NCBI RefSeq assembly: GCF_004751985.1
Contig: NZ_CP038492.1
Span: 434,001-498,000, forward strand
Source: Rhodophyticola sp. CCM32
GTDB taxonomy: Bacteria > Pseudomonadota > Alphaproteobacteria > Rhodobacterales > Rhodobacteraceae
Direction of reading: 5' to 3'
Length of the DNA: 64,000 nucleotides
Positions 25,069-59,241 of the stretch are shown here, piece after piece. The notes under the pieces were generated by a model that worked only from the letters and a program-made list of their open reading frames with translations, searched no databases and was not told where the DNA came from. The position numbers and the translations under genes are program-made. Numbering within the stretch: the stretch's first letter is position 1; every line of letters begins with the position of its first letter.

Positions 25069-25117
25069 GGGGGGCGTTGCCCCCGGACCCCCCCGGGATA
25101 TTTGCGAAGCAGAGAAG
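25069..25117 (+). repeat. Dispersed intergenic repeat, family A copy 1
   Basis: A block with GGGGGCGTTGCCCCCGGACC, then CCCCCGGGATATTTGCGAAG and CAGAGAAGG. It contains a G-run/C-run hairpin followed by a short A/T-rich tract. The same layout recurs reversed at 59187-59241 and, in altered form, inside xdhB (46119-46170). It separates trpF from trpB. Repeats of this appearance are common between genes in Rhodobacteraceae. Confidence 0.6.
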
Positions 25118-43933: not shown

Positions 43934-44871
43934 GCACGCATTCCTGTCCGCAGGGACTCTGTCGCTGAATCATTGAGCATCTGCCTTGAAAGTAGGTCTG
44001 CGGCCACCCCCACGGCAATGGTTTGTGGGTGTTTGCCAAGATGCGGGGCCCCGATCGGGCAGGTAATGCGCGAAATTTGGGCATCTTCGTGCCGCAGATC
44101 GCGCAATCGGGAGCGGAACCGCATCTTCTTGGTGGCAGAGCCGATCAACCCGCAGCTCTGGAAGGGCTGGCCAAGGACGGTATGGCAAAGGGCGAAATCC
44201 ATTTCGTGATCATAGGTCATGATCAGATGATGCGCCGCGGCTGGCGCATGTCGCATCGCCAGTTCGGGTTTCGCGGCGGGCAGCGCCGTCACCCTGTCGG
44301 GCAGCGGGTCCGGGAAGCGCCCGGGGGTGGTATCGACCCAGGTGATGGCAAAATCCGGGAGGGGGGCCATGATATCGACCACGGCGCGCCCCACATGGCC
44401 CGCGCCATATATCCAAAGCGATTGGCGCGGCTGGGCCAGGGGTTCGATGAACCAATCCGCGATATGAAGCGGCGCTTCGACGCCCCGGGCGATGGCACGG
44501 GTCACTGCGTCAGGCCGGCCAGAATGGGCCATGACCGGATGGGCATGGGGGAACTTTTCGGGCAGATGGTCGGGCATGAACCGCTCAAAGGACAGGGTCA
44601 CCGCGCCGCCGCAACATTGGCCCAGCGCCGGGCCAAGCGCGAAGGTTCTGGCGGAATGCGTGATCTCACGGTCGAGGTTTTTGCGCGCCATGGCGGCGGC
44701 ATCGAATTCCAGCCGACCCCCGCCGATAGTGCCCGATTGCCCGCCGGGCCAGACCAGCATCGCGGTCCCCACATCGCGCGGGGTGGAGCCCTTTACGGCG
44801 ACGATCACAACGCGGCACACGGCACCATGCGCCGCAACAGCGCGTTGCAAGCCTGTCAGGTCAAAGCTCAT
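43930..44871 (-). CDS. xdhC: Xanthine dehydrogenase accessory protein XdhC
   Basis: A 313-residue maturation factor that binds molybdenum cofactor and helps sulfurate it before insertion into XdhB. The N-terminal XdhC/CoxI domain reads VIVAVKGSTPRDVGTAMLVW, GGQSGTIGGGRLEFDAA and LGPALGQCCGGAVTLSFE, with conserved Cys in QCCGG. The C-terminal Rossmann part has LWIYGAGHVGRAVVDIMAPL and GLIGSATKKMRFRSRLRD. The ATG at 44871 ([16 protein letters not shown]) overlaps the end of xdhB, the usual coupling; the upstream frame is antisense noise. Confidence 0.93.
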   Translation of the reverse strand: MSFDLTGLQRAVAAHGAVCRVVIVAVKGSTPRDVGTAMLVWPGGQSGTIGGGRLEFDAAAMARKNLDREITHSARTFALGPALGQCCGGAVTLSFERFMPDHLPEKFPHAHPVMAHSGRPDAVTRAIARGVEAPLHIADWFIEPLAQPRQSLWIYGAGHVGRAVVDIMAPLPDFAITWVDTTPGRFPDPLPDRVTALPAAKPELAMRHAPAAAHHLIMTYDHEMDFALCHTVLGQPFQSCGLIGSATKKMRFRSRLRDLRHEDAQISRITCPIGAPHLGKHPQTIAVGVAADLLSRQMLNDSATESLRTGMRA

Positions 44872-47321
44872 GCCCGCGCCCTTCCGACGGCGCGCAACAC
44901 CTCTTCCGCCGTCGCGGGCGCCTGCAAATCGGGATAGCCGGGTCCGCAAGCCGCGCAGGCCTGCGACAGGGCCGCCAATACGGAAATTCCCAGCATCAGC
45001 GGCGGTTCCCCCACGGCTTTGGAGCGGTAAATCGTTTCTTCCCGGTTCGGTGCGTCCCAAAGCGCGACATTGAATATATCGGGCCGGTCCGAACAGGCCG
45101 GGATCTTGTAGGTGGAAGGCGCATGGGTTTTCAGCGCGCCCCTTGCATCCCAGACCAGCTCTTCCGTGGTCAGCCAGCCTGCGCCCTGCACAAACCCGCC
45201 CTCGATCTGGCCGATATCCAGCGCCGGGTTCAGGGACGCCCCCGCATCATGCAGGATATCGGTGCGCAAAATCCGGTTCTCTCCGGTCAGGGTGTCAATC
45301 ACCACCTCTGAACAGGCCACACCATAGGCGAAATAGAAAAACGGCCGCCCATGCCCGGCGATCCGGTCCCAGTCCAGCCCCGGTGTTTTGTAAAATCCGG
45401 TCGCGCTCAACGAAACGCGCGCCATATAAGTTTTTTCCACCGCCTGTTCGAATGGCATCGAGGCCGCGCCCGCGCGCACCATCCCGCCTTCAAACACCAC
45501 CGCTTCAGGCACGGCCTGCAATTCTGCGGCCACAACCCCGGCAATCCGGCCCTTGATCTCCTCACAGGCCACCTGCACCGCCATCCCGTTCAGATCGGTC
45601 CCCGATGACGCCGCCGTGGCCGAGGTGTTCGGCACCTTGCCCGTATCCGTGGCGGTGATCTTCACCTGATCCACAGGCACCCCGAACGCGGCTGCCGCCA
45701 CCTGCGCCACTTTCTGGAACAGGCCCTGACCCATCTCGGTCCCGCCATGGTTCAGGTGGATTGATCCATCCTGATACAGATGCACAAGCGCGCCCGCCTG
45801 ATTCAGATGGGTGAGCGTGAAGGAAATCCCGAATTTCACCGGCGTCAGGGCGATCCCCTTTTTCAACAGCGGTTCCCGTGCGTTCCAATCCGCCACCGCT
45901 GCCTGCCTTGCCGCATAATCACAGCGCTCGCTCAGGACATCGGTCATCTCATGAAGAATGAAATCCTCCACCTCCATCCCATAGGGCGTGGTATTCTCCC
46001 CCCTGCCGGACACTGGCGAATGGGCCCCGCCAAATTGGACCCCGCCAAATCGCCGCGCCCCGCCTGACCCGCTTTCAAGCTTCACCGATCCGCGCCCGGC
46101 GAGGTCATCGCTGTCCAGCCCCTTCCCCTTCTTTATCTCGAAAATACTTCCGCCGGAGGCCTCGGCCCCCTCCGCATCCGCCGCGCGGTAATAATTGACC
46201 CGCCGCACCTCCAGCGGGTCGCGGCCCAGGGTATGGGCGATATGGTCCATGACCCGTTCAATCCCCAGCATTCCCTGCGGTCCGCCAAAGCCGCGAAAGG
46301 CGGTGGCGCTCTGGGTGTTGGTCCGCAACCGGTGCGAGGTGATCCGGCAGGCAGGCAGCAGATAGGCATTATCCGCATGCAGCATCGCCCGGTCCGCCAC
46401 CGGCAGGCTCAAATCCATCGACCAGCCGCAGCGCGCATATTGGGTGAAATCGACGCCTGCGATCCGGCCCCGGTCATCAAACCCCACGCGGTAGGAGATT
46501 CGGAAATCATGCCGTTTGCCGGTGATCAGAAAATCATCATCCCGGTCATAGCGCATCTTGCAGGGCCGCCCGGTACGTGCGGCGGCCAGGGCGCAGGCAA
46601 TCGCCAGATGGTTGCCCTGGCTTTCCTTGCCGCCAAACCCGCCTCCCATGCGCCGCAGCTCGACCCGCACCCCGTGCTGGGGCAGGCCAAGCGCATGGGC
46701 GACCTTGTGCTGTATTTCGCTTGGATGCTGGGAGGAGGAATGGACAAGCATATCGCCCCCCTCCTGGGGCAGGGTCAGGGCGGCCTGTCCTTCAAGATAG
46801 AAATGTTCCTGCCCGCCAATCTCGATCTGGCCGTCCAGATGATGTGGGGCTGCGGGTATGGCGGCCTCCACATCGCCCTTGCTGTAAATCCGCGGACCAT
46901 CTTCAAAGATCGTGCCTGCGGCCAAAGCCTCCTCAATCGTCAGGACCGGCGGGGCCTCATCATAGGATATCTCTGCCAAAGCGGCGGCTTTTCGGGCGGC
47001 CAGATGGCTTTCTGCCAGCACCAGAAACAGGGGCTGACCCAGATAATGGACCTGCCCGTCGCTCAGCAAAGGCTCATCATGGGCTGAAGGGGAGCAATCG
47101 GGTATCTCCTCAAAATCCGCGCCCGACAGAACCGCAACCACACCCGGCGTGGCGCGCACCGCTGTCAAATCCATTGCGGTCACGGTTCCGGCGGCAATGG
47201 AACTGATCCCGAAGGCCAGATGCAGGCAGCCCGCAGGGGTCGGGATGTCATCCACATAGCGCGCGGCGCCGGTGACATGCAGGGCGGCGGCGTCATGGGG
47301 CAGGGGGCGGGCCACACTCAT
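44868..47321 (-). CDS. xdhB: Xanthine dehydrogenase molybdopterin-binding subunit XdhB, with an in-frame insert
   Basis: An 817-residue Moco subunit that oxidises hypoxanthine and xanthine to urate. Seen in order: [132 protein letters not shown] and [15 protein letters not shown] (the catalytic Glu lies in the GEPPL region). Between YYRAADAEG and ENTTPYG there are about 57 residues (about 384-441) with low-complexity [11 protein letters not shown] content that do not belong to the family. Removing them gives ~760 residues, the usual size. The insert carries repeat DNA (see 45999-46170). Confidence 0.92.
45999..46170 (-). repeat. Repeat-derived in-frame insert within xdhB
   Basis: The part 46119-46170 resembles the family A repeat: on the minus strand GGGGGCCGAGGCC, a GGCGGAAGTATTTTCGAGAT stretch, then AAAGAAGGGG. 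Compare GAAGTATTTTTGAGATAGAG in the copy at 59187-59241. The remaining part holds two tandem TTTGGCGGGG words. The whole tract is a multiple of three within error and contains no stop in the xdhB frame. Confidence 0.6.
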
Positions 47322-59186: not shown

Positions 59187-59241
59187 CCCCTTCTCTATCT
59201 CAAAAATACTTCGGGGGGCCGAAGGCGGGGGCAGCGCCCCC
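59187..59241 (-). repeat. Dispersed intergenic repeat, family A copy 2
   Basis: On the minus strand: GGGGGCGCTGCCCCCGCCTT, CGGCCCCCCGAAGTATTTTT, GAGATAGAGAAGGGG. It has the same G-run/C-run hairpin followed by an A/T-rich tract and a purine-rich end as the trpF-trpB copy (25069-25117). It lies between the VWA and M48 genes. Confidence 0.6.

Follow-up and report, generated by a model that had tools for sequence, protein, structure and literature searches.

A repeat element read in frame within the XdhB linker of Rhodobacteraceae tends to share the dialect of its host genome

The window analysed here is a stretch of 64,000 nucleotides from the genome of Rhodophyticola sp. CCM32 (3.86 Mb, one contig; hereafter G000). 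Its minus strand encodes xdhB, the molybdopterin-binding subunit of xanthine dehydrogenase, as an intact open reading frame of 817 residues at 44868..47321. The protein scores 1194 bits against the XdhB equivalog model TIGR02965 (cut-off 849.5), in agreement with a preliminary description of this DNA, made from the letters alone, which likewise held the frame to be open and the protein otherwise intact. The insert which that description placed in XdhB is real: the alignment with R. capsulatus XdhB (1jro_B) breaks after residue 387 and picks up at 435, while in rat XDH a single residue lies opposite 62 of XdhB. An AlphaFold2 model computed with 34 sequences (mean pLDDT 72.9) gives residues 384-440 pLDDT values below 50. 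The alignment gap and the low pLDDT together indicate that the insert sits in an extended linker joining the Mo domain's two halves (residues 384-441; 45999..46172, minus strand), which is short in R. capsulatus, one residue long in rat XDH, and here probably disordered. The earlier suggestion of a tolerated loop insert is therefore probably right, as judged from the predicted structure.

The same description regarded about 57 residues as foreign repeat DNA. The insert stands, whereas the repeat itself covers only 36 nt and 12 residues (388-399; 46125..46160, minus strand; E 4.7e-07 with the element profile introduced below). Searched with blast against its own genome at E<=10, the insert had 42 matches besides itself. 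In 39 of these the match lies where the insert begins, mostly covering nucleotides 2-37 of 166, with a best E of 3.9e-9 and up to 94% identity; the count of 39 places elsewhere in the genome is a lower bound, since scores were computed for 40 of the 80 candidates. Genomic copies of the insert DNA thus exist, as proposed, and the two window copies that had been likened to it do resemble it. Both are intergenic and have a 5' hairpin. One (59187..59241, minus strand) has the same core as xdhB, GAGATAGAGAAG, at 59190-59211 (G000:493190-493211), and the other (25069..25117, plus strand) carries a second dialect, GAAGCAGAGAAG, with its core near 25098. The significance of the repeat rests on the genome-wide search, as a loose pattern search within the 64-kb window gave 6 matches, a number equalled in 30 of 100 shuffles and hence not above chance.

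The remaining linker residues, about 45, are an older linker common to the genus plus a 15-nt tandem duplication (GGVQF; 46021..46050, minus strand), the latter found in G000 alone of seven genus genomes and absent from its six relatives. Being shared within the genus, this remainder did not arrive as foreign DNA with the repeat. The linker is of similar length in five of the six relatives and shorter in one, and RGSVKV and GGAHSP are further parts of it that recur in the genus. Rhodophyticola porphyridii (L112) has the same linker as genome G003. By eye, the element occupies the same linker position in the sister species, G006, alone among the six. That the element is a newcomer to this one genome is ruled out, since relatives carry it.

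In G000 the short-form unit reads GCCTCCGGCGG, then AAGTATTT, two free bases and GAGATAGAGAAG. The dialect part, TATTT with its genome-specific core (TCGAGATAAAGAAG), lies at 46128..46146 (minus strand) in xdhB, and 25 G000 copies, xdhB included, are of this dialect. The element, which in this family normally lies between genes, has as its general form a G+C-rich 5' part, often a hairpin, followed by TATTT, two free bases and a genome-specific core of 12 nt that ends in AAG or AAA. Among the loci fetched, with genes assigned by a simple caller based on codon usage, 77 of 101 intergenic copies lie downstream of a gene on the same strand, at a median distance of 59 nt from the stop codon (n=67). 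A reading as T-tract or terminator found no support, TT being present in 19 of 67 sense and 6 of 20 antisense gene contexts, with no difference between them. Rfam gave three chance-level matches on the region, none above gathering, and a single match, a tRNA, on six sources. We also observed inverted pairs of elements at short spacing between genes (L015, L016/L021 and L168/L181), which form long potential hairpins. At L182, L236 and L237 an element end, AAGAAG or GAGAAG, stands directly 5' of the downstream start codon, where it may serve as a ribosome-binding site.

XdhB is not the only protein to host the element. In a Yoonia genome (G020) it is read sense in the linker of BchB and antisense in CobN, which has 9 residues more than 9uk9 (L204/L166 loci). 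In G022 it lies antisense near the start of BchY, although this start is possibly miscalled and the element perhaps upstream of the true one. The element can thus enter coding sequence in either orientation, and its hosts comprise XdhB, BchB, CobN and possibly BchY.

The pattern GRTATTTNNNNNNNRANGAAG was searched in 33 of 34 genomes (L088 left out) and is present in 29 of the 33, with 0-128 copies per genome, against 2 matches in total for the reversed control pattern. It finds none in G000; dialects that it misses are covered by other patterns, among them a noisier second pattern (10 control matches over ten genomes), so that some of the copies listed for G001, G009 and G010 may be chance matches. 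The copy lists hold the first places per genome and are not always complete, G012 and G016 having one listed copy each outside xdhB. Across 152 genomes of the class, in which G000 and G057 are the only family members, the maximum was 4 matches to GRTATTTNNNNNNNRANGAAG per genome, and the control matched in scattered genomes too, up to 3 times. Outside the family these genomes thus showed no multicopy set of GRTATTTNNNNNNNRANGAAG, though other dialects could be missed. The listed Rhodobacteraceae genomes each have between one and three dominant cores, one of which tends to recur in xdhB, as with AACATGAGAAG in Roseobacter sp. CCS2, GCAAGAAAAAR in Oceaniglobus, GATCCGAAGAAG in a Flavimaricola MAG and GGAAAGATGAAG in HLUCCO18.

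We examined the XdhB linker across the family using one scan, of whose relatives, at least 538 in number, the best 80 were kept; one of its six search peptides, IFEIKKGK, falls within the element, so that carriers may be over-represented. Together with seven genus loci this gave 87 loci, 84 of which yielded an open reading frame (none was obtained from L100, L126 and L133). The linker is 12 to 70 residues long (median 51, 82 different genes), and in many linkers the element has a longer form, such as GGGGGGCTGTCTGCCCCCCGCGCTACGCGCCCCCCCGAAGGTATTTCGCGCCAAAAGAAG in a Yoonia MAG. To avoid circularity, the profile was built from 108 copies outside xdhB, three xdhB loci and eight loci unlike the element by look being excluded. 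At E<=0.01 it matches 24 of the 84 xdhB reading frames. All 24 matches fall within the linker (12.6 kb), with none in the other 203 kb, and without exception they share the coding strand and a single frame. A further 14 linkers, not counted among the 24, contain what by eye are weaker versions. Homologues in many genera therefore share the element in the same linker and frame, although not the 57 residues as a whole, so that the earlier expectation of an insert without counterpart in unrelated genera holds for the latter and is in part contradicted for the former. A second palindrome, AAGATGGGTCTTGACCCATC with its variants (read as RKMGLDPS), was seen in the linkers of L111, L114, L129, L134 and L094, in the first two without the first element.

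The constancy of the frame is informative. The 108 copies outside xdhB are open in 3 to 6 of the six frames, and the frame used in xdhB makes up 94 of their 525 open frames (18%); a single frame in 24 of 24 cases thus points to common descent. On an XdhB tree of 82 rows (L061 and L112 were left out as repeats of L033 and L035), the 24 carriers are scattered among 58 others, with 16 changes between carrier and non-carrier, at least 10 of them forced by well-supported branches. Adding the weak carriers gives 18 changes, 10 of them forced. With 16 changes on the tree we place the origin at once or a few times, rather than at a single event; one gain followed by many losses, or a few gains, would fit the scatter.

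The core of the xdhB copy was then compared with the copies elsewhere in its own genome. Twenty-six genomes qualified by score and frame, and 25 were used, as G011 is without listed copies; the linker of G010 was mis-anchored and left out of the count. As frame was a selection criterion in this comparison, the claim of a single frame rests on the separate profile result. The mean best mismatch was 1.00 of 12, against 3.19 when permuted, a value reached in 0 of 100,000 permutations that ignore ancestry. In 20 of the 25 genomes the own-genome mismatch was 0 or 1; the own genome was unbeaten in 19 (18 in an earlier count) and uniquely nearest in 10. Another genome was strictly closer in six cases, slightly so for G020, G021 and G031 and with 4 to 6 mismatches for G009, G013 and G022; the search patterns may have missed the dialects of these exceptions. 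The base before TATTT, assessed in 21 of the 26 genomes, entered by hand (G006, G009, G011, G013 and G022 left out), matches the own genome in 21 of 21, the base linked to the nearest core being taken in the seven with two dialects. Including the left-out genomes with listed copies makes this 23 of 25, G006 and G013 matching and G009 and G022 not. The core, too, tracks the genome (0.760 vs 0.506), whereas the two bases between TATTT and core barely do (0.093 vs 0.059; 672 of 20,000 permutations). These free bases retain a coding bias, the first of them being C in 21 of 26 cases, compared with 66 of 411. Taken together, these comparisons across genomes suggest a tendency of the coding copy to match the dialect of its genome, which could not be seen from the window.

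Because the permutation takes no account of ancestry, paired cases from sister species carry more weight. Copies in G006 read CCATATTT..GGATAGAGAAG where those of G000 read AAGTATTT..AGATAGAGAAG, and the two xdhB genes differ likewise, with changed amino acids: SIFEIK in G000 is HILGIE in G006. In the dialect of xdhB, the fourth base after TATTT is A in 24 of 24 other G000 copies and G in 25 of 26 G006 copies (Fisher 4e-13), and the xdhB base agrees with its genome in both species, being A in G000 but G in G006. The trinucleotide preceding TATTT is AAG in all seven other G000 copies read and CCA in all seven of G006, and again xdhB follows. The main dialect of G006 had escaped the first patterns and was found by a later search, made because this genome was an exception. 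At an intergenic site of the genus, the element ends in GATAGAGAAG in G000 (with one extra base before) and in GAAGCAAAGAAG in G006, and each of these cores recurs elsewhere in its own genome. G003 and G005 carry GAAGCAGAGAAG there, read at this site alone; no element was seen at the site in G001 and G002, and nothing recognisable in G004.

A second set of sister genomes, G017, G023 and G028, shares one orthologous insertion, with the same left flank, upstream of a gene that we take to be folD from the start of its protein. Here the element reads AACAGAAG in G017, AACAAAAG in G023 and AACATGAG in G028; the dialect has changed in place. Their xdhB genes (L085, L105 and L117) have shared borders and the same three words as the folD-like site, and at both sites the base before TATTT is G, A and G, respectively. 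Inspection of the folD-like site by eye revealed no element in G031, G033, G021, G026 and G022, a longer stretch holding no more than a degraded copy in G020, a decayed copy in G019, and in G012 an element in that genome's own dialect.

These observations bear on whether a REP- or MITE-like mobile element might jump repeatedly into a permissive linker from its own genome's stock. Such recurrent insertion would explain why the coding copy matches the host dialect, and it has in its favour that orthologous sites without the element exist, that carriers are scattered on the tree with 16 changes, and that other proteins have received the element (BchB in sense and CobN in antisense orientation in G020, the BchY start in antisense in G022). 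Yet it would have to hit one strand and one frame in 24 of 24 profile matches, when this frame accounts for 18% of those open to it. Moreover, sister genomes share the borders of the element and not its dialect, both in xdhB and at the folD-like site, and no mobilising protein was recognised in G000. We consider recurrent insertion quite unlikely.

We asked whether the stretch behaves as protein-coding or as nucleotide sequence. Where two full-form linkers (12 in all) have the same amino acid, the codon is also the same in 820 of 967 cases (85%), compared with 17912 of 37891 (47%) in the rest of the gene, M and W being left out. Codon identity is higher in the element than in the rest of the gene in 66 of 66 pairs, and 0 of 728 other 20-codon windows reach the element's value. 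Full-form linkers also preserve a second hairpin, with a mean perfect stem of 4.40 against 3.54 after letter shuffling (0 of 500), paired with 12 different arms in 20 linkers (L082 and L132 left out); in L093, 2 bp of it are left. The 45 nt 5' of the core are the most stable stretch of the gene in 8 of 22 linkers, and in the other 14 between 1 and 11 of 248-370 windows are equally stable. The window's short form is not stable beyond chance (z -0.91), and the same goes for an intergenic short form (z 0.90).

Selection for a linker peptide required for XdhB function, the likeness to the repeat being incidental, would predict the constant frame of the 24 profile matches, and the recurrence of RGSVKV and GGAHSP in the genus is in keeping with it. 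Of 11 listed pairs, 5 have a higher amino-acid identity in the element than in the remainder of the gene; however, it is lower in the other 6, while codon identity is far above the rest of the gene. In addition, 60 of the 84 XdhB proteins lack a profile match, and dialect shifts alter charge, as in L117, where EQKK becomes EHEK. Selection at the level of the protein is strongly disfavoured and, in our view, very improbable. As the coding copy tends to change along with the genome's other copies, the repeat stretch in xdhB looks to be shaped by the needs of DNA or RNA, and not of protein.

The explanation that we judge likely, on the basis of these sequence comparisons, is an old in-frame insertion, inherited in some lineages and lost in others, whose sequence has been rewritten where it stands as the genome's remaining copies changed. 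The element would have entered the interdomain linker of XdhB early, once or a few times, where it would be tolerated because the linker is disordered. It would since have been inherited, with losses in many lineages, and the xdhB copy would have been rewritten alongside the copies elsewhere in its genome, with amino-acid changes as the price. We infer that origins were few, and that the coordination would come about through point changes in response to a co-evolving factor by which the element is bound, as DNA or RNA.

The alternative motor of this coordination is gene conversion, by which recombination between repeats would homogenise the copies, xdhB included, with no function of the element required. 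The cores are largely uniform within a genome, change has occurred in place, and G006 and G000 differ jointly from the three bases before TATTT through the core, all as conversion would have it. Against this, the base before TATTT and the core track the genome while the two bases between them hardly do so and keep their coding bias. The 5' half is also site-specific, with the full form in xdhB and the short form at the folD-like site of the same genomes, and tracts would measure about 20-25 nt. The barely tracking free bases and the site-specific 5' half speak for point changes in the wake of a factor more than for the conversion of tracts. They do not amount to proof, because selection on the protein could filter converted tracts and so likewise leave the two free bases unmatched. 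On the whole, gene conversion seems somewhat doubtful to us.

Following the preferred reading of point changes in step with a factor, we tentatively propose, at a little short of an even chance, that the element is recognised by a fast co-evolving trans factor of Rhodobacteraceae, such as a receptor of the uptake type or a protein that binds DNA or RNA, and that the xdhB copy is a working site. If true, a factor unrelated to the enzyme would, through its specificity, determine the enzyme's amino-acid sequence, which would shift with every change in that specificity. A candidate for this factor was not found: the single Y1_Tnp (PF01797) protein in G000 is IS200-like and lies apart from the element, no copy of which was seen by eye within 1.5 kb of it in this genome. 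At L235 (G000:1511505), an IS200-like transposase is followed by apparent transposase remnants, with no element seen nearby.

Palindromic elements of Rickettsia (RPE) are short palindromic repeats found in frame in intact proteins as well as between genes. By description, the element reported here resembles them in being a repeat unit in frame within an intact protein, as had been suggested, and in having several different hosts (XdhB, BchB, CobN, possibly BchY). It differs in belonging to another bacterial family, and in occupying one site of one gene across many genera, in one frame, with a copy that tends to follow the host dialect. Among the RPE, RPE-1 lies within a pseudouridine synthase gene of R. 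conorii (PMC3733652). REPs tagged by GTAG or CGTC are 20-40 nt long and numerous, lie mostly downstream of genes and in some cases within reading frames, and occur at about the same recB site in two Xanthomonas species (PMC3733652). Many short intergenic copies downstream of genes (77 of 101) recall them, but the G000 short form as read has neither GTAG nor CGTC on either strand, and no RAYT-type protein was found beside the element in G000. The main text of PMC3733652 does not mention Rhodobacter, Roseobacter, Paracoccus or Ruegeria. The enterobacterial repeats RU-1 to RU-3 are likewise intergenic and also found within genes with the frame kept, but are longer and MITE-like (103-168 bp), and the abstract mentions no genome-specific dialect (PMC2759123). 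In the literature searched, which covers few subscription papers, we recognised no description of the present element.

By analogy, the element can also be compared with the DNA uptake sequences of Neisseria and Haemophilus. These are species-specific short words with dialects, often situated at gene ends or terminators, with some coding copies and concerted change with the receptor. A genome-specific word, a coding copy and concerted change are features in common, whereas copies are far fewer here, at 0-128 per genome for GRTATTTNNNNNNNRANGAAG. A palindromic repeat within a protein is a known kind of finding; what the present case adds is the concerted change of the coding copy. In-frame palindromic repeats are usually regarded as accidents of insertion, and a coding copy that evolves together with non-coding copies across a family would invert the usual direction of constraint. 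The family provides dozens of natural replicates, and a comparison of sister strains can tell whether conversion or co-evolution with a factor is at work, a question that bacterial repeat families pose. The dialects themselves, in the bases before TATTT and the core with two free bases between, offer a handle for finding the factor.
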